Source of the DNA: Solirubrobacterales bacterium
Lineage (GTDB): Bacteria; Actinomycetota; Thermoleophilia; Solirubrobacterales; Solirubrobacteraceae
Length of the DNA stretch: 44,348 nucleotides
Assembly (NCBI GenBank): GCA_019244745.1
Contig: JAFASF010000189.1
Coordinates: forward strand, 1 to 44,348
Reading direction: 5' to 3'
The translations under genes and the position numbers were made by a program. Positions 1,922 to 33,583 of this stretch are shown piece by piece. Positions within the stretch are counted from its first letter, which is position 1; every line of letters starts with the position of its first letter. The notes beneath the pieces are model-generated. The model made no database searches. It was not told where the DNA came from and worked only from the letters and a program-made list of their open reading frames with translations.

Positions 1922-3316
1922 ATGGACTCCCGCCGCCTCGAGCACTTTCTCGCGGCCTTCCGCCATGGGAGCCTCGGCCGTGCCGCGGCGGAGCTCCACA
2001 TCAGCCAGCCCGGCCTGAGCAAGAGCATCCGCCAGCTCGAGCGCGAGCTGGAGGTGAAGTTGTTCGAGCGCACGCCGATGGGGCTGCAACCGACCGTCTT
2101 CGGCGAGGCGCTCGCGACCCACGCCAGCTCGGTTCAGTCGGAGCTTGACAGCGCGAGCCGGGAGATCGCGATGCTCCGGGGCGCGGCCAAGGGCGTTGTG
2201 AGGATCGGGGTGACGCCAAGCGTGGCCGCGAGCCTGATGCCCGTGTTCGCCGCCATCGGCGTACCCGGCGGGATCATCGCCTACATCTTCTCCACCTCTC
2301 AGACGTTCCTCGACGTGCTCGCGATCGCAGGTGGCCTCGGCACGATGGTCGGGCTGGCGGCCTACCCGGACGGACTCGCAGCTCGCATGGCCTACGACGC
2401 GCGGCGGCTAAGAGGCTGGTTGAAGGCCCGCCTCGCCCGCTATCTGCCCTTCGCCTCCGGCCCATCAACCGCGCCCAACCTGGAGGCGGGGCAGAGCATC
2501 GCGGCGGTCCGACGTTCGGAACACGAACTCCGCGTCGATGGCCTCGAGGTGCGCTTCGGCGGTGTCGTCGCGCTCGACGGCGTCTCGCTGTCGGTGCGCT
2601 CGGGGGAGATCTTGGCCCTGATCGGCCCCAATGGGGCCGGCAAGACGACGCTGATCGACGCCGTGACCGGGCTCGCCCCCTGCCACGCCGGGACGATCTG
2701 CCTGGACGGAGAGCGCATCGAAGCCTGGCCGGTGGCCCGCCGGGCCCGGGCAGGAATCGCGCGGTCATTCCAGTCACTCGAGCTGTTCGACGACATGACG
2801 GTCGAGGAGAACCTGCGCGCCGCGGCCGAGCGCCCCGCGTCCTGGTCCTACATCGGGGATCTCGTCCGCCCGGCGAACCCGCCGCTGCCCGTTCCCGCGC
2901 TGCGAGCGATCGAGGATTTCCGCCTCGGGAACGATCTGCACCGCCTGCCCGAAGAGCTCTCGTTCGGACGCCGGCGGATGGTCGGGATCGTCCGGGCGGT
3001 GGCTGCGCAGCCAAGCGTGATACTGCTCGACGAGCCCGCGGCCGGACTCGATGAGAGCGAGTCGCTGGAGCTCGCCGGCCTGTTGCGCATGCTGGCCGAG
3101 GCGCGCGGGTTGGCCGTGCTTCTGATCGAACACGACATGAACCTGGTGATGAGCGTCTCCGATCGCGTGGTGGCGCTCGACTTCGGGCGGAAGATCGCGC
3201 AGGGGTCGCCCGGTGAGGTCCGCCACGACCGGGCGGTCATCGATGCGTATCTCGGAGCGGGAGCACCGCTGGATCCTTCCCCGCCGAGGCTCGCGCTTCC
3301 GGGTCGGGGACGATGA
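1922..3316 (+). CDS. In-frame chimera: LysR N-terminus + LivM-type permease tail + LivG-type ATPase
   Basis: 464 residues with three unrelated parts. Residues 3-62 are a LysR winged HTH (RLEHFLAAFRHGSLGRAA, QPGLSKSIRQLE). Residues 91-107 are the usual opening of a LysR effector domain (GVVRIGVTPSVAASLMP). From about 109 the text changes to a membrane-permease tail (FAAIGVPGGIIAYIFSTSQ, then a cationic linker to about 180). Residues 205-440 are a branched-chain amino-acid type ABC ATPase: Walker A GPNGAGKT 235-242, degenerate signature ELSFGRRR 345-352, Walker B VILLDEPAAGLD 366-377, H-loop His404. The LysR effector domain, most of the permease and probably the upstream Liv genes are missing. 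It overlaps LivF by ATGA. A deletion junction near 2240-2250 is the simplest reading; misassembly is the main alternative. Neither regulator nor permease can be functional; the ATPase might be. Confidence 0.8.
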   Translation: MDSRRLEHFLAAFRHGSLGRAAAELHISQPGLSKSIRQLERELEVKLFERTPMGLQPTVFGEALATHASSVQSELDSASREIAMLRGAAKGVVRIGVTPSVAASLMPVFAAIGVPGGIIAYIFSTSQTFLDVLAIAGGLGTMVGLAAYPDGLAARMAYDARRLRGWLKARLARYLPFASGPSTAPNLEAGQSIAAVRRSEHELRVDGLEVRFGGVVALDGVSLSVRSGEILALIGPNGAGKTTLIDAVTGLAPCHAGTICLDGERIEAWPVARRARAGIARSFQSLELFDDMTVEENLRAAAERPASWSYIGDLVRPANPPLPVPALRAIEDFRLGNDLHRLPEELSFGRRRMVGIVRAVAAQPSVILLDEPAAGLDESESLELAGLLRMLAEARGLAVLLIEHDMNLVMSVSDRVVALDFGRKIAQGSPGEVRHDRAVIDAYLGAGAPLDPSPPRLALPGRGR

Positions 3317-16687: not shown

Positions 16688-17763
16688 GGCCGACGCTCCG
16701 GGGTGAACGCGACATCCCCGCTCCAGGGGGCCGCGAGATGACCGTCGAGGCCGAACTCGTCCTTGCGCTGGGACTTCTTGAGTGACTCGATGTCCAGCCC
16801 CAGAAGTCGGGCCGCGTTGAGGCCGAGGATCTTGCGCTTGGCTTCCGGGGTCAGCGGTCGGCAGCCGGATTGGATTAGCTCCTCTGGGATCTCCAGCGAC
16901 CAGAAGGCCTCGAGCGGCGGCTGGGGATGGACGGCGCTCACCCCGGTCGCCCACAGGATGCGGTCCTCGGCGTCGAACTGGGCCAGGAGCGTGCCGATGA
17001 TCTCGGCGAAGCGGCGAGGCGCATTGTTCAGGTAGGCGGTGGTTCCTTCGAGGTTCACGACCACGTTGGGGAAGCGCCCCAGCAGCATGGCGGTCTCCTC
17101 CAGGAACGCGAACCCACCGTGCACGACCTCAAACGTGAGGTCCGGGAAGGCGGCGGCCGCCACCTCGACGTCCTCGACCCGATAGGGATGGGACGGGAAG
17201 AGACCGAGCGGGATCGCCTTATGTACGGCCACGCTGCGAAGCCCGCGCTGGCGCGCGCGTTCATAGATGGGAAAGAGGAGCCGCTCGTCGTCCATGTGGA
17301 AGGTCTGCACCCGGCCGTGTACCAGGTCCGCGGGGTAGAACTTGATCCCCACGACCCGCTCCTCCTCGACCAGGCGGTCGACCTCGTCCAGCGCATCCGA
17401 GGCATAGGGATCGACGGGGCCATAGAGCGCGACCCGGTTCGGCCAGCGGCGGCGCATGTCGGCCCCCACCCACAGCGGCGAGCCGCCGTCGCGAAACACC
17501 CCGAACTGGGGCACGCCGTGGTAGATGGCAAAGTCGCTCCAGCTCTCGGCGAAGATGCTCGAGGCGAGCAGGTCAGGATCGGCGCCTCGCAGCCAGCGCT
17601 CCTTGTCGAGGATGAACTCGGGCCGGTGGGCGGGCGAGAGCATGGTGTGGATTCGGCGGTGCTCCATCGAGCCGATGTCGGCGTGCACGGAGTCGGTCTG
17701 GTTCTCCGGGGCGAAGTGCAGGCCGTGGGCGACCCCCTCGATCACGTAGACGTCTTCGATCAT
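16684..17763 (-). CDS. Amidohydrolase family 2 metalloenzyme
   Basis: 359 residues of an amidohydrolase-2 type TIM barrel, the group that includes ACMSD and gamma-resorcylate decarboxylase. Features seen are VEEERVVGIKFYPA, a late VVHGGFAF (His after strand 6), and ILWATGVSAVHPQPPLEAFW in place of the usual ILFGSDYP. The usual metal Asp is thus not where expected (ATGVSA for FGSD), and the N-terminal HxH is not obvious. It begins with ATG overlapping the monooxygenase stop by ATGA. Hydrolysis or decarboxylation of a ring-derived acid is inferred. Catalytic status is uncertain. Confidence 0.78.
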   Translation of the reverse strand: MIEDVYVIEGVAHGLHFAPENQTDSVHADIGSMEHRRIHTMLSPAHRPEFILDKERWLRGADPDLLASSIFAESWSDFAIYHGVPQFGVFRDGGSPLWVGADMRRRWPNRVALYGPVDPYASDALDEVDRLVEEERVVGIKFYPADLVHGRVQTFHMDDERLLFPIYERARQRGLRSVAVHKAIPLGLFPSHPYRVEDVEVAAAAFPDLTFEVVHGGFAFLEETAMLLGRFPNVVVNLEGTTAYLNNAPRRFAEIIGTLLAQFDAEDRILWATGVSAVHPQPPLEAFWSLEIPEELIQSGCRPLTPEAKRKILGLNAARLLGLDIESLKKSQRKDEFGLDGHLAAPWSGDVAFTPERRP

Positions 17764-19025
17764 GGTCGGCGGAAGTGGCCGCCCGGGCCCTCGACCCCGA
17801 GGTACAGGCGCCCGAAATCCCCGGCCAGGTCGAGCCGCTGGGCGCTCAGGTGGCCGCAGTACATCGCCACGTCGCGGAAGTAGCGCTGCAGCCGCTCTCC
17901 CCGCCTGGCCGCGCTCGAGCCACCGGTATGGAACATGTGCTCCACCGCGCGGGCGGCGATGTCGCCGGCGTGCTGAAGGATGCCGTAGATCCTCGCGTCG
18001 TCCTCGAGGGTGTAGAGCTCGCCCCGCTCGTAGCGCTCGCGCGTGAGTCGCATGAAGCGCTCGGTCGCGGCGTAGAGCAGCTCCTCGGCCGTGTCGACCA
18101 GGCCCACGGCCAGCCCGTAGTCGCGCTGGTAATCCGGGCTGCGCCAGCGGTCGACGGGAGCCGTTTCGCCGAACGGAGGCAGCGTCGTCTTGCGCATCCG
18201 CAGGAGCATCTCGTACTCGTCGAGCGCCGCCTTGGCCGCCCCCACGATCGGCACGACGAGAGTGGCGTGGTAGAAGGCGTGGCGAAGCCCGGCGTACATC
18301 GGGTTGCCGTGGAGCTTCATGCCCGGGGTCACGCCGCTCTTGTCCCAGTCGAAGGGGACGGCGAACGGTTCGGGTATGACCGCATCCTCGATCACCACGG
18401 TGTTGGATCCGCTGCCCTGCATGCCGAGCACCTCGCCGCCGCGCCAGTCGTCGAGTACGGTGATCTGCTCACGCGGGACGACGACCGCGTACAGCTGCGG
18501 AGCCCTGGCTGCGTCATGGACAAACGCGGTGCCCATGAAATGGGTGGCGTACGGGATGCCCGAGCAATAGCGCCAGCGTCCGCTCACCCGCCAACCTTCC
18601 GGCACCCGCTCGGCCGTGCCGCCGGGGGCCACGCTGTGGGGGCAGCGAAAGTCGCCAGTGGGCCCGAAGATCGCCGCCTGGGCGGCCTCGCTGAAGCGGC
18701 TGGCGATGATGTAGGCGTGGCTTGAGGCGAGGCCCAGGCACCAGGCGGTGCTGGGGCAGCCCGTGCCAATGGCGACCATGACGCGGACGAACGTCGGTAC
18801 GCCGAGCTCGTAGCCGCCGTAGCGCCGGGGCTGGAGGATGCGTGAGAATCCGGCAGAGACGAAGCGCTCGTGCATCCCGATGGAGTAGTGGCCGCGCTCT
18901 TCGGTGCGCTCCTGCTCCTCGCGCAGCAGGGGGATGAGCGCCTCGGCGGACTCGATCAGGAGCTTCGGCGTGATCTCGGCGCCGGACGGCGACCTGCCGG
19001 CTGAGGAAGTCGGGACGGCGCTCAT
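17760..19025 (-). CDS. Acyl-CoA-dehydrogenase-fold flavin monooxygenase (HsaA/DszC type)
   Basis: 421 residues. Class D flavin monooxygenase layout: an N-terminal helical domain, a central beta domain with WRVSGRWRYCSGIPYATHF (the substrate/flavin segment typical of this class) and a C-terminal four-helix bundle ending in EHMFHTGGSSAARRGERLQRYFRD. These enzymes take FMNH2 or FADH2 from a separate reductase and hydroxylate phenols, indoles or sulfur rings. The edge flavin reductase and the FMN reductase at 21.8 kb are candidate partners. The ATG at 19025 has no good ribosome-binding site, but it overlaps the stop of a possible leader ORF by ATGA. It is first in an operon with the amidohydrolase and MIP18-like gene. 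Confidence 0.86.
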   Translation of the reverse strand: MSAVPTSSAGRSPSGAEITPKLLIESAEALIPLLREEQERTEERGHYSIGMHERFVSAGFSRILQPRRYGGYELGVPTFVRVMVAIGTGCPSTAWCLGLASSHAYIIASRFSEAAQAAIFGPTGDFRCPHSVAPGGTAERVPEGWRVSGRWRYCSGIPYATHFMGTAFVHDAARAPQLYAVVVPREQITVLDDWRGGEVLGMQGSGSNTVVIEDAVIPEPFAVPFDWDKSGVTPGMKLHGNPMYAGLRHAFYHATLVVPIVGAAKAALDEYEMLLRMRKTTLPPFGETAPVDRWRSPDYQRDYGLAVGLVDTAEELLYAATERFMRLTRERYERGELYTLEDDARIYGILQHAGDIAARAVEHMFHTGGSSAARRGERLQRYFRDVAMYCGHLSAQRLDLAGDFGRLYLGVEGPGGHFRRP

Positions 19026-19093
19026 GCGCAGATTCGATTGCAGGAGGGCGACCGCGGCGGGATCATCACGACCGCGGACCACGCTGGCACCAT
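19022..19093 (-). other. Possible leaderless leader-peptide ORF (23 codons) coupled to monooxygenase
   Basis: An ATG at 19093 lies 8 nt after a perfect-looking TATACT -10 (19107-19102). It opens a 23-codon frame (MVPAWSAVVMIPPRSPSC, then NRICA) whose TGA overlaps the ATG of the monooxygenase (ATGA). Since the monooxygenase has no ribosome-binding site, translation could be coupled to this leader. No homology is claimed. Confidence 0.4.
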
Positions 19094-19100
19094 GTGTAGA

Positions 19101-19110
19101 TAGTATACAC
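19101..19110. promoter_or_regulatory. TAGTATACAC operator/promoter between divergent operons
   Basis: GTATAC at 19103-19108 sits between the monooxygenase operon and the aldehyde dehydrogenase gene. Leftwards it supplies TATACT as a -10. Its flank ACACTTCTTGAG closely matches TTCACTTCTTGGG at the 23.53-kb site. Confidence 0.55.
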
Positions 19111-19145
19111 TTCTTGAGAATTTCACTCTGGACCCCGGAGGAGCC

Positions 19146-20645
19146 ATGAGCGCGACTACCGCCGCAGATCCGATCGGCACCTACGTCCGCGGTCACGCCT
19201 TCAAGCTGCTGATCGGAGGCGAGCTGTGCGACGCAGCAGATGGTGCCACGCTTCAGACAGTCGACCCCTCCACCGGAGAGGCGTTGACCTCGGTACCGAG
19301 CGCCGGCGCTCAGGATGTGGCCCGCGCTTACGAGGCCGCTGCGGCGGCCCAACCGGACTGGGAGGACATCGGCGTTGAGGGCCGCAGCGAGGTTTTCTCG
19401 CGGCTCGCTGCCGCGATCCAGGCAAACGAGGAACGTCTGGCGGCGCTCGATGCGGTGGACGGCGGCCTGCCGCTGGCGGCCGCGCGGGTGGACATCAAGA
19501 TCTCGCTGGCCAACATTCGCGACTGGCCGACGCTCGTGCGTTGGCACGGCGGCCGCACGATTCCAGCCAGCCCGGGCAACCTGCACTACACGAGCTACCG
19601 GCCCTACGGCGTGGTGGGCAAGATCCTCGCCTACAACCATCCCGCGATGTTCGCGATCACCCGCACGCTGGCCGCCCTGATCGCCGGCAACGCGGTGATT
19701 CTCAAGCCCGCCCCACAGGTTCCGCTGTCGGCGCTCGCTCTGGGGGAGATCGCCCGCGACGTGTTCCCGCCCGGGGTGTTCAACGTGCTCACCGGCGGCG
19801 CGGAGGCCGGCGACGCGATCGTCACCCACCCGGCCATCAAGCGCATCGGCTTCACGGGCTCGGTGCCCACCGGCCTGAAGATCCAGCAGCGGGCCGCCAC
19901 CGCCGCGGTCAAGCACGTCTCGCTCGAGCTCGGCGGCAAGAATCCCATGATCGTCTTCCCCGACGCCGATCTCGACGCCGCGGTGGACGGAGCGGTCAGC
20001 GGGATGAACTTCGGCGTCTGCGCCGGTCAGTCGTGTGGCTCGAACTCGCGCAACTACGTCCACGGCGAGATCTACGACGACTTTGTGAGCCGGGTCGCCG
20101 AGCGGCTCGAGGCGATGCGGGTGGCGCCCGCATATGCCGACGACGTCGACATGGGACCCCTGGTCACGCGCGAGCATTACCAACGCGTAATGGGATTCGT
20201 TCGCTCGGGCAACGAGGAGGGTGCGCGGCTGGTCACCGGCGGCGACCGGCCCAACGGCTCGACCGAGGACGGGGGATTCTTCCTGCGCCCGACGCTGTTC
20301 GCCGACGTCTCCCCGGCGATGCGGGTTGGCCGCGAGGAGATCTTCGGCCCGGTGATGGCGATGGCGTCGTGGGATCAGACCGAGGAGGTGATCGCGGCGG
20401 CCAATGACACCGAGCTCGGCCTCACCGCATCGGTGTGGACGCAGGACCTGACCACCGCGCACCGCGTGGCGAGCCGCCTCCAGGCGGGCTACGTGTGGGT
20501 CAACGACACCGGCCGGCACTACTGGGGAACTCCGTTCGGCGGCGCCAAGAACAGCGGCCTCGGGCGAGAGGAGTCAACCGAAGAGTACGAGAGCTACATG
20601 GAGCTCAAGGCGGTGCACGTGATCCTCCGCGGACGCGGTGGATGA
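19146..20645 (+). CDS. NAD(P)-dependent aldehyde dehydrogenase
   Basis: 499 residues, full family length. Key residues are Asn164 (AYNHP), Lys187 (ILKPAP), Glu261 in ELGGK and Cys297 in GQSC. The NAD-binding GFTGS motif is at 235-239. It oxidises an aldehyde made elsewhere in the island, such as an aromatic aldehyde or semialdehyde. The ATG follows CCGGAGGAGCC. It overlaps the acyl-CoA-dehydrogenase-like gene by ATGA. Regulated from the divergent promoter containing TAGTATACAC. Confidence 0.92.
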   Translation: MSATTAADPIGTYVRGHAFKLLIGGELCDAADGATLQTVDPSTGEALTSVPSAGAQDVARAYEAAAAAQPDWEDIGVEGRSEVFSRLAAAIQANEERLAALDAVDGGLPLAAARVDIKISLANIRDWPTLVRWHGGRTIPASPGNLHYTSYRPYGVVGKILAYNHPAMFAITRTLAALIAGNAVILKPAPQVPLSALALGEIARDVFPPGVFNVLTGGAEAGDAIVTHPAIKRIGFTGSVPTGLKIQQRAATAAVKHVSLELGGKNPMIVFPDADLDAAVDGAVSGMNFGVCAGQSCGSNSRNYVHGEIYDDFVSRVAERLEAMRVAPAYADDVDMGPLVTREHYQRVMGFVRSGNEEGARLVTGGDRPNGSTEDGGFFLRPTLFADVSPAMRVGREEIFGPVMAMASWDQTEEVIAAANDTELGLTASVWTQDLTTAHRVASRLQAGYVWVNDTGRHYWGTPFGGAKNSGLGREESTEEYESYMELKAVHVILRGRGG

Positions 20646-29138: not shown

Positions 29139-30455
29139 ATGACCACGATGGCTTCGCTGAAGACGGTGGAGCGCCTGCGAGCGACGGTGGAGCCGGAGCA
29201 GGGGCGGATCCCGATGTTCATCTACACGGACCCGGAGGTCTACGAGCTCGAGCTCGAGCGGGTGTTCGGGCGCACCTGGCTATTTGTCGGCCACGAGTCG
29301 GAGGTGCCGGAACCGGGCTCATTCCTGGTCCGCGACATGGGCGAGGAGTCGGTAATCGTGGGCCGTGGCGAGGACAACCAAGTCCGAGTGTTCCTCAACA
29401 GCTGTCGCCACCGCGGAATGCGGCTGGCATGCGAGGACTTCGGGAAGGTGTCGATGTGGCGCTGTCCCTACCACGGCTTCACCTACGACTCGGCCGGGGA
29501 GTTCATGGGGACGCTGATCGCGGCTCCGTACGAGCGCGCCGCCTATCCCGAGGGTCTCGACCGCAAGGCTCTGCACCTGATTGAGGCCCGCACCGACTCT
29601 CACGCGGGCTTGATCTTTGCCACCTGGTCGCAGGACGGCCCCACGCTCGATCAGTTCCTCGGGAACCTGAGCTGGTATCTGGACCTGTTGGTCGGCCGGG
29701 CCGAGATGGAGGTCGTGGGCGCGCCACAGAAATGGGTGCTGCCGGCAGGCTGGAAGCTGCCGTCGGAGAACTTCTGCGCGGACGCTTACCACACCGCCAC
29801 GGCGCACTCGTTCCTCGCGCGGCTGGGGATGGTGAAGGGAGTCGACTTCGGCCGCGACGGCTATCACGTCGATCCCGGCGGCGGTCACGGACTGGGTGTC
29901 GGTGTGCACTTCGATGAGGAGTCTTACTTCCCCGCCGACCTGCGCGACGAATACAGGGCCCACCTCGAGCCCGAGCAGCTCGGCCTGCTCGACCGGGTCA
30001 AGAACCTGCACGGCAACGTATTCCCGAACCTCTCATTCCTGATCCCGAACTTCATCGTCGTCGATGGGCGTCGGGTCAGCGGCATGATGCTCCGGCTCTG
30101 GCAACCGATCGGGCCCGACAAGGTGCAGGTGTGGTCGTGGCATCTGGTGGAGAGAAACGCTCCCGAATGGTGGAAGCGACTCGGGCAGAAGATGTATGTG
30201 CAGACCTTCGGTATGTCCGGAATGTTCGACCAGGACGACACCGAGAACTGGGAAGCGCAGACCCGCAACTCCAACACCGCGCTCTGGCGGCAGGACGAAA
30301 TCATGCTGCACTACGCGATGGGAATCTCGGGCGAGCCGCTCACGGAATTCCCCGGACCTGGCGACGTCTATGACGGGAAGTTCTCCGAGGCGGCGGGGCG
30401 CACCTTCTACCGGACCTGGCTCGACTTGATCCTCGACCAGCGGCCGGAGCAGTGA
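29139..30455 (+). CDS. Rieske aromatic-ring dioxygenase, alpha subunit
   Basis: 438 residues, normal for alpha subunits. Rieske cluster ligands: C89-x-H91 (NSCRHRGMRL) and C109-x2-H112 (WRCPYHGFTYD). Mononuclear iron: D215-x2-H218-x4-H223 (ENFCADAYHTATAHS) plus the late DQDDTENW segment. It catalyses cis-dihydroxylation or monooxygenation of an aromatic ring with electrons from the ferredoxin. The start ATG follows GGGAGAG. It is the first gene in a tight alpha-beta-ferredoxin operon. Sequence style is closer to the benzoate/biphenyl-type alpha subunits, but substrate cannot be read. Confidence 0.95.
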   Translation: MTTMASLKTVERLRATVEPEQGRIPMFIYTDPEVYELELERVFGRTWLFVGHESEVPEPGSFLVRDMGEESVIVGRGEDNQVRVFLNSCRHRGMRLACEDFGKVSMWRCPYHGFTYDSAGEFMGTLIAAPYERAAYPEGLDRKALHLIEARTDSHAGLIFATWSQDGPTLDQFLGNLSWYLDLLVGRAEMEVVGAPQKWVLPAGWKLPSENFCADAYHTATAHSFLARLGMVKGVDFGRDGYHVDPGGGHGLGVGVHFDEESYFPADLRDEYRAHLEPEQLGLLDRVKNLHGNVFPNLSFLIPNFIVVDGRRVSGMMLRLWQPIGPDKVQVWSWHLVERNAPEWWKRLGQKMYVQTFGMSGMFDQDDTENWEAQTRNSNTALWRQDEIMLHYAMGISGEPLTEFPGPGDVYDGKFSEAAGRTFYRTWLDLILDQRPEQ

Positions 30456-30967
30456 TCGCGGCCGGCGCCATCGGCATCGAGACCTGGCTCGAAGTCCATC
30501 ATTTCCTGGTGGCCGAGGCGGAGCTGCTCGACAATCGTCGGTTCGAGGAGTGGCTGGAGCTCTTCACCGAGGACGTCGAGTACACCGCCCCTGTGCGGGT
30601 CACGAAAAAGAATCCAGCACCGGACGTGGTGGCGCAGAACCTTTTGTTCGACGAGAACCTGGCGTCACTGACCCTCCGGGTCAAGCGGCTCGCGACCGAC
30701 GTCGCCTGGGCTGAAGATCCACCCTCGCTCACCCGGAGGCTGATCACCAACATCCGGGTCAATCCCGCCCCCGCCGACGATGAGTTTTTGGTCAAGAGCA
30801 ACGTGCTGCTGTTCCGCAGCCGGGGCGACGTGGGTCGTCACGACATCGTCTGCGGTGAGCGCGAGGACACGCTCCGGCGCCTCGAGGGCGCACTGAAGAT
30901 TGCCCGGCGACGCATCGTGTTTGACCAGGCCTCGCTCGGGACCAAGAACCTGGCGGTGTTTCTTTGA
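30452..30967 (+). CDS. Aromatic-ring dioxygenase, beta subunit
   Basis: 171 residues of the NTF2-like small-subunit fold: VHHFLVAEAELLDNRRFEEW near the N-terminus and a conserved R-I-x-F-D-like end (RRRIVFDQASLGTKNLAVFL). It is structural, forming the alpha3beta3 hexamer. A GTG start overlaps the alpha stop by GTGA, showing translational coupling. The ferredoxin gene follows after 22 nt. Confidence 0.93.
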   Translation: MIAAGAIGIETWLEVHHFLVAEAELLDNRRFEEWLELFTEDVEYTAPVRVTKKNPAPDVVAQNLLFDENLASLTLRVKRLATDVAWAEDPPSLTRRLITNIRVNPAPADDEFLVKSNVLLFRSRGDVGRHDIVCGEREDTLRRLEGALKIARRRIVFDQASLGTKNLAVFL

Positions 30968-31283: not shown

Positions 31284-32240
31284 CTAGCCCCGCTCGCCTG
31301 ACCAGAACCGGATGAACTCGCTGAGCAGCCAGGCGAACTCGCGAGGCTGTTCGCGAAACGCGAAGTGACCAGCCCCGCGGACCGTATAGAAGCGAACGTT
31401 GGGGTTGCTCTGAGATAACAGCTCGAACAGGGCATGACCCTGCTCCAGCACCGCCCATGGATCCTCGCGACCCCAGTAAAGGAGGATCGGCAGTTCCCCC
31501 AGGCGACCAGCTTCGATCTGGCGGTGGGTGTCGGCGCGGATTTCCGCCAGAGAGTGATCCCAGCGGGCCTGGCCGCCGCCCTGCATCACCTCCGCCGTGC
31601 GAAGCGCCTTTGGGCGGGTAGCCATCCAGGCATCGGTGGCCACGAATTCGTCGGTCACATGCTCGGTGCGATAGGACATTCGCTCATAAAGCGCGCGCAG
31701 CTGCTCCGGGCGCTGAGCGGCGAACGTCGGCGGCCGGGAGAAATCGAACACGCCCTCGAGCACGAGTCGCTGGCGGCGGGGAAAGTCTCCCCAGCGGGGC
31801 GCGATCGTCTCGGAGTTGATAATCGTCAGGCCCAGCACCTCGTCCGGGTGCTCGACCGCCAGTCTCGCGGCCAGCCCAGCGCCGCGAGACTGGCCGACCA
31901 GGTGGTAACGCTCGCAGCCGAGCGCCCGGACGAAGTCGTGCATGTGGTCGACCTCGGTCCGATAGACGTAGTCCTCCTCCCGAGCTGGGTTGTCGCTCAG
32001 CCCACACGCGACGCGGTCCGCCGCCAGGACCCGGAGGGTGCCGGCCAGGTCGGAGATGTTCTTGGACCACACGTTGGCGCTGCTGGAGCCACCCCAGTTG
32101 CCGCCGTGGCAAAGCACCACCGGCTGTCCGGTTCCCTCCTCGTAGTAGCGCGTGCGGATGTCTCCGACGTCTATGAACCTGGCCGTCAGCCCTTCGATGG
32201 CGCCGTCTTCGCGCACCGGGGCCTGCACCTGGACGGTCAT
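31284..32240 (-). CDS. Alpha/beta hydrolase, meta-cleavage-product hydrolase type
   Basis: 318 residues with HGG oxyanion-type motif (VVLCHGGNWGG), nucleophile GQSRGAG, an acid region LLYWGREDPWA and final His in GAGHFAF. These match C-C bond hydrolases such as BphD/HsaD, though haloperoxidase-like esterases share the pattern. In this island it would hydrolyse a ring-cleaved product. It is translationally coupled (ATGA) to the luciferase-family gene upstream. Confidence 0.85.
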   Translation of the reverse strand: MTVQVQAPVREDGAIEGLTARFIDVGDIRTRYYEEGTGQPVVLCHGGNWGGSSSANVWSKNISDLAGTLRVLAADRVACGLSDNPAREEDYVYRTEVDHMHDFVRALGCERYHLVGQSRGAGLAARLAVEHPDEVLGLTIINSETIAPRWGDFPRRQRLVLEGVFDFSRPPTFAAQRPEQLRALYERMSYRTEHVTDEFVATDAWMATRPKALRTAEVMQGGGQARWDHSLAEIRADTHRQIEAGRLGELPILLYWGREDPWAVLEQGHALFELLSQSNPNVRFYTVRGAGHFAFREQPREFAWLLSEFIRFWSGERG

Positions 32241-33583
32241 CGGTCCGCCGGGTCCCCGCCGGCACGCCCGTCGGTCGGGAAATAGACCACTCGGCTGCCG
32301 ATGTCACGGGAGCGAAGCTCCCCTCGCGCAGCGAGGAGCGCGAGCCGCGGGTGCGCGAGCGCCGACGGGCACCCGAGCGCGGCCGCGATCTCCTCGGCCA
32401 TCGCCCCTGGGCTGCGGGCGACGGCGGCGGCCAGCGCCTCGTCCGGAGGCCCGGCCGTCGGCAGCGGCGGGGGACCCGGCTCTCCCGCATCGCGGCGGGG
32501 CAGCCCCTGCGGCGGGAAGAAGACGATCCGCGCGCCGATGTCGCGAAGCTGCAGCTGGCCTCGGCCGGCCAGCATCGCCAGCCGGGGATGGGCGAGCCCG
32601 GGGTCGCACCCGACGCTCGCGGCGATGGCCTCGGCCATCGAGCCGGGCGCCCGGGCTACCGCCTCGACGAACGCCTCATCGGCCGGCCAGTCCATCGGTA
32701 TGTCGCCGGGCGGCCCCATCGTGGCGGTAGCGGCGGGCGCAAATGCCGTCATCACGAGGCCGCCGAGGAGCTCGAGCTGCTCGAGGTCCGACACCATCGG
32801 AAACAGGATCACCTCGTCGCAGCCGACCGCTTGGTAAGCGCTCAGAAAACCCATCACCTGCTCGGGCGAGGCGAGCATGTGTTCGGCAAAGATCTCGCTG
32901 ACCTCCGGGGAGAAGTGACTGCGGATGTACTCCCGTCCCCGCTCGGCCGGCCCCTCGCCGAGCGCGTAGAGCCAGGCCCCGAGGAGGTGCGGTTGGCCGG
33001 TGCGGCCCTCCCGCTCCCAGGCCGCGCGCACGGCGCCCGCGTGCGCGGCAAACACGTCCGGAGGGCCGGCAAAGCCGGCAAGCCCGTCGGCGGCCTGAGC
33101 GATCAGCTCGAAGGAGCGTTGCGTGCGGGCGGCGACCAGAAGCTTGGGACCGCCTGGGCGCGCGGGTCGCGGACCGATCGTGTCGCCGGTCCAGAACGCC
33201 CGCAGCGCGTGCAGCGAACGGGCCAGCAGTTCGCGCCGATCCTCCCAACGCAGCCCGGCGGCGGCGTAGTCGGAGGGGTGCGCGCCCACGCCCAATCCCA
33301 ACATCAGGCGTCCACCGCAGAGCACGTCGAGGGTCGCCGTCTCCTTGGCAAAGACGGCGGGGTTGCGAAGCGGCGCCGCGATCGCCGTCGAGGCGAGCCT
33401 GATGCGGTTCGTCGCGCCGGCGCAGAGCGCCAGCGCCGGGATGGCATCGAGGCTGTCGAACGCCAGACGATCCATGGCGGCGAGCGTCGAGAACGGCCCC
33501 GCGTCGGCGGCCCGGGCCCAGTCCAGCAGGCGCTGCTTGTCGACGCCGGGGAGCATGCTCGGCATTCCGACTCCCACCTGCAT
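32237..33583 (-). CDS. Luciferase-family oxidoreductase with duplicated C-terminal module
   Basis: 448 residues. Residues 1-290 are an LLM-class TIM barrel in the F420/FMN style (VGVGMPSMLPGVD, IRLASTAIAAPLRNPAVFAKE, GRLMLGLGVGAHPSDYA). Residues 300-357 and 380-436 are a duplicated module with the form DEAxxxAVAR-PGxMAEEIAAxxGC, LAHPRLAxLAxRGxL, RDIGxRxVxFP, resembling a small winged helix. No such module is usual in this family. The ATG at 33583 lies 7 nt after TACAGT, a leaderless geometry. It overlaps the downstream hydrolase by ATGA. Confidence 0.85.
   Translation of the reverse strand: MQVGVGMPSMLPGVDKQRLLDWARAADAGPFSTLAAMDRLAFDSLDAIPALALCAGATNRIRLASTAIAAPLRNPAVFAKETATLDVLCGGRLMLGLGVGAHPSDYAAAGLRWEDRRELLARSLHALRAFWTGDTIGPRPARPGGPKLLVAARTQRSFELIAQAADGLAGFAGPPDVFAAHAGAVRAAWEREGRTGQPHLLGAWLYALGEGPAERGREYIRSHFSPEVSEIFAEHMLASPEQVMGFLSAYQAVGCDEVILFPMVSDLEQLELLGGLVMTAFAPAATATMGPPGDIPMDWPADEAFVEAVARAPGSMAEAIAASVGCDPGLAHPRLAMLAGRGQLQLRDIGARIVFFPPQGLPRRDAGEPGPPPLPTAGPPDEALAAAVARSPGAMAEEIAAALGCPSALAHPRLALLAARGELRSRDIGSRVVYFPTDGRAGGDPADR

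Follow-up and report, generated by a model that had tools for sequence, protein, structure and literature searches.

The minus strand of the window (the whole 44,348-nt stretch of DNA that was analysed) carries at positions 32237..33583 an ORF of 448 amino acids, whose product is a genuine luciferase-like (LLM) class oxidoreductase with a C-terminal tail. PF00296 (Bac_luciferase) matches residues 15-221 with 104.4 bits against a cut-off of 27.9 (E=9.9e-30), which bears out the family that the sequence-only reading had assigned to ORF 33583-32237 (-); by this match and the end of the alignments with its relatives, the catalytic domain was delimited to residues 1-277 (32753..33583, minus strand). 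The best NCBIfam model for the protein was TIGR03619, an F420-dependent LLM subfamily, scoring 106.2 bits and thus below its cut-off of 166.9; moreover, neither TIGR01916 nor PF01996 matched anywhere in the own genome (91% complete) when a CofE/FbiB F420 ligase was looked for. F420 dependence is thus unsupported, and because the ligase was not found in this genome FMN seems the likelier cofactor. A second LLM enzyme, SfnG-like and 381 aa long, is encoded on the same contig (22379-23524, minus strand) and is devoid of such a tail.

The stop codon of the LLM gene overlaps, in an ATGA, the start of a gene for an HsaD/BphD-like alpha/beta hydrolase (31284..32240, minus strand), an overlap that suggests translational coupling of both genes. 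On the opposite strand lie the genes for the alpha and beta subunits of a Rieske ring-hydroxylating dioxygenase (29139..30967, plus strand); further neighbours within the window are an aldehyde dehydrogenase and a DHDPS-like gene, and the neighbourhood is a catabolic island. The window also contains a 919-aa ORF (17760-20519, minus strand) that resembles HsaA (acyl-CoA dehydrogenase fold) over its last ~400 residues; the first ~520 have no Pfam match, and the true start is probably near residue 520.

The closest relatives are stand-alone LLM proteins of ~280 aa, a PF00296 group encoded near salicylyl-CoA 5-hydroxylase-type genes, which come from haloarchaeal plasmids and from a single genome (G060) of the same order; they are homologous over residues 1-277 with 44-46% identity, the alignments running from the first residue to about 277, where these proteins stop. 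A match at E<=1e-40 was present in 18 out of 299 genomes sampled from the class (own genome counted), and among those 18 it was only in the own genome that the frame ran on unbroken into the tail. According to these alignments the catalytic domain ends cleanly at about residue 277. The stand-alone relatives adjoin genes for a salicylyl-CoA 5-hydroxylase-type flavin monooxygenase/OYE and for benzoate-CoA ligase, in one case also a tryptophan 2,3-dioxygenase gene, and from these neighbours the group seems to belong to aromatic-CoA catabolism. While the relatives are tail-less and have CoA-aromatic neighbours, the enzyme described here has a tail, and a Rieske dioxygenase and an alpha/beta hydrolase nearby. 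The pairing of an LLM oxidoreductase gene (product of ~280 aa) with one for a salicylyl-CoA 5-hydroxylase-type monooxygenase/OYE protein recurs in bacteria and haloarchaea (loci L056, L058, L059, L107 and L108; families checked in L059 and L108), and in several cases benzoate-CoA ligase and creatininase-like genes accompany it.

Beyond the catalytic domain, the tail is composed of two winged-helix-like modules, module 1 (residues 300-360; 32504..32686) and module 2 (residues 379-439; 32267..32449), separated by a Pro/Gly-rich linker (residues 361-378; 32450..32503), all on the minus strand. Two near-duplicate copies had already been noticed at this place, at residues 300-357 and 380-436, and both are indeed there with slightly longer extents. 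They are identical at 39/61 positions (64%) in a gapless BLASTP alignment (E=4e-28), and the best ungapped internal self-match of the protein scores 217, whereas 60 shuffles of the sequence reached no more than 52. Regarding the core motifs proposed for the copies, LAHPRLAxLA and RDIGxRxVxFP are found in both, but PGxMAEEIAA is exact in copy 2 only, its counterpart in copy 1 being PGSMAEAIAA. At the DNA level the copies share 65.6% identity (75/80/41% at the three codon positions), with dN 0.29 and dS 1.24. Read from this pattern, the frame is truly coding and the duplication is ancient, both copies having been maintained under purifying selection at the protein level; a divergence of this size excludes a recent or assembly-made duplication.

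The structure of module 2 was predicted with AlphaFold2 using module 1 as the sole aligned relative. The module was predicted to be structured, with helices at 3-12, 16-25 and 35-42 followed by strands at 46-51 and 54-59 (pLDDT 70; pTM 0.43, a value at which global packing is unreliable), and this helix-helix-helix-strand-strand order is that of a minimal winged helix; helix order and spacing are also the same as in HTH_IclR (PF09339) and ArsR-type winged helices. A single-sequence prediction of the whole 448-aa protein was unusable (pLDDT 37.6). Foldseek returned no significant match for the module model (E values >0.4), its weak list being mostly made of winged helices (SmtB/ArsR, MarR, Z-alpha, AspA), and VIA-align gave three chains only, with Z 2.0-2.1, among them the Z-alpha domain of PKZ and BpsR. 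Profile searches gave sub-cut-off matches to HTH_IclR, with 21.1 bits on the tail (E=2.6e-4; cut-off 22) and 16.9 bits on the whole protein, and EutK_C (PF16365), with 18.2 bits on module 2 (E=0.0025; cut-off 27.5). No Pfam or NCBIfam model reached its cut-off on the tail, and PDB sequence searches gave insignificant matches only. When the module profile was compared by hhalign to seven EutK_C-type winged helices from related genomes a score of 30.0 was obtained (84.5% probability), the best score in 100 column shuffles being 17.5.

The resemblance to a winged helix put forward from the sequence thus finds moderate support in the secondary structure, the sub-threshold profiles, hhalign and the kind of folds among the weak Foldseek matches, though the three-dimensional matches are weak, and we consider it quite probable, as a supported rather than proven assignment, that the modules have this fold. 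The description of the module as new-looking holds for its sequence and architecture but not for its fold.

As for its distribution, the number of LLM enzymes found to carry the module is one, in a single draft genome (463 contigs, 91% complete). No second case of an LLM enzyme with the tail was found in samples of the order (232 genomes) and the phylum (396 genomes); a class-wide search with the tail (399 genomes, E 1e-4) retrieved the window itself only, and no tail relative was detected in 84,980 GTDB genomes (contigs), IMG/VR viral contigs or plasmids, bearing in mind that sequence searches of this kind miss strongly diverged copies. Besides the LLM gene itself, searching the own genome with the tail turned up just two matches, both insignificant and in improbable frames, and no homologue of the tail was seen in the frames of the other LLM genes. 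LLM oxidoreductases are abundant, with 30 PF00296 matches in this genome, and elsewhere they were tail-less in everything examined; the suspicion that such enzymes do not normally carry this tail therefore agrees with every relative and genome inspected. The matches to the module profile in the order and phylum samples were all rejected as chance: some fell in an MshA-like glycosyltransferase or in frames antisense to it (L042-L045), some in further proteins without relation to the tail, such as a short-chain dehydrogenase, a phosphodiesterase-like protein and a peptidase, and some in high-GC frames unlikely to be coding. EutK_C-family matches in related genomes corresponded to chance frames, to basic winged-helix tails on other proteins or to further HTH proteins, and in no case was there a fusion to an LLM enzyme. 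Literature searches yielded nothing relevant on LLM enzymes with winged helices. We regard the LLM domain followed by a tandem winged-helix-like tail as a new architecture made from known folds, the function of which we infer.

The modules had been suggested to turn the enzyme into a DNA- or partner-binding sensor, or else to bind a substrate. One reading of the tandem is that both modules are true DNA-binding winged helices and the protein a moonlighting "trigger enzyme", through which the state of the flavin or substrate would act on transcription of the catabolic cluster. The profile resemblance, IclR-type HTH included, is in line with this, two modules could span two half-sites, and IclR regulators are found near LLM relatives in haloarchaea; furthermore, conservation between the copies is highest in regions that include helix 3 (11/14) and a portion of the wing, as would also be expected of nucleic-acid binding. 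However, the modules are acidic (pI 5.6-5.65 and net charge -1 each; -4 for the whole tail), a basic linker is absent from the tail, and in each copy LAHPRLA places a proline, residue 35 of the module, within what would be the recognition helix; in the model this helix begins only at 35. In addition, no profile rises above its cut-off. EutK_C-type domains of related genomes display pI values of 9.2-10.7 and several of them lie behind basic linkers. DNA binding is thus unlikely in our opinion and the DNA-binding sensor is left unsupported, since acidic modules and a proline in the recognition helix favour protein docking or self-association; partner binding would be the best of the options suggested, and substrate binding finds no support. 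The more specific version in which the tail senses flavin or substrate state and its winged helices switch the expression or assembly of the own cluster, as a new kind of trigger enzyme, seems to us quite doubtful.

It could also be argued that in this one lineage the tail does no more than aid solubility or oligomerisation, has no regulatory or docking role, and leaves the working of the enzyme unchanged when absent. Its restriction to one genome would fit, as would the fact that all relatives, judging from the stand-alone genes, function tail-less; nevertheless, the copies are still 64% identical in protein despite a dS of 1.24, which implies that some function constrains them, and we find this explanation improbable. 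An assembly or frame artefact, in which the tail would come from another gene or organism, is very unlikely: the genome is indeed a draft of 463 contigs, no relative carries the tail, and an ORF of the same contig (1922-3316) resembles a LysR/LivM/LivG chimera, yet the frame is continuous from the LLM domain into the tail, G+C3 matches between them (0.87 and 0.88), the end of the tail overlaps the start of the next gene and the repeat is far too diverged for an assembly duplicate. The ORF at 1922-3316 (+), at the left end of the contig, joins a LysR HTH (residues 4-62) to a full LivG-type ATPase, with residues about 109-200 matching branched-chain amino acid transport proteins in which permease and ATP-binding parts are fused; it was probably created by a deletion or by misassembly, with the junction near nt 2245, unless the fusion is real.

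The explanation that we favour, tentatively and with slightly less than an even chance of being right, is that of an LLM enzyme of aromatic catabolism whose tandem winged-helix-like tail serves for docking. A flavin-dependent LLM oxidoreductase, part of a catabolic cluster of the aromatic or acyl-CoA type, would have gained, beyond its normal end, two modules of winged-helix fold with a Pro/Gly-rich linker between them. These would be repurposed winged helices that, rather than binding DNA, give the enzyme a bivalent means of docking onto protein or of self-association; the tail may hold the enzyme to a partner, such as the overlapping alpha/beta hydrolase or the oxygenase components, so that its product is handed on. 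The first candidate is possibly the hydrolase encoded in the overlap.

PutA is a trigger-enzyme oxidoreductase with an N-terminal ribbon-helix-helix; both proteins combine an oxidoreductase with a potential DNA-binding module, although DNA binding by the LLM tail is disfavoured. PutA is the counterpart of the trigger-enzyme reading, the less likely one. Regarding regulators, the LLM protein differs from HTH_IclR and ArsR-type proteins in that it has no IclR effector domain and in that the charge of its modules and the proline of the recognition helix are atypical. Another parallel, with profile similarity, is the C-terminal domain of EutK (PF16365, PDB 3i71), likewise a winged-helix module ending a metabolic, non-regulator protein, and a helix-turn-helix domain that is itself unexplained, with no established role (PMC5821096). 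Unlike EutK_C, the LLM modules score below the Pfam cut-off, are present in two copies, are acidic and are borne by an enzyme, EutK being a shell protein. An enzyme whose winged-helix-like tail was duplicated and then kept by selection would be a test case for DNA-binding folds becoming docking modules in metabolism; less probably, it would be one for feedback from enzyme to gene.

In genomes of the same order, seven loci (L083, L084, L091, L094, L098, L103 and L106) code for small proteins that end in a winged helix of EutK_C type (..YLYRVLPELEAEGKIRKQG..); they have a probable coiled-coil start and a basic Lys/Arg-rich linker, and resemble nucleoid-associated proteins.
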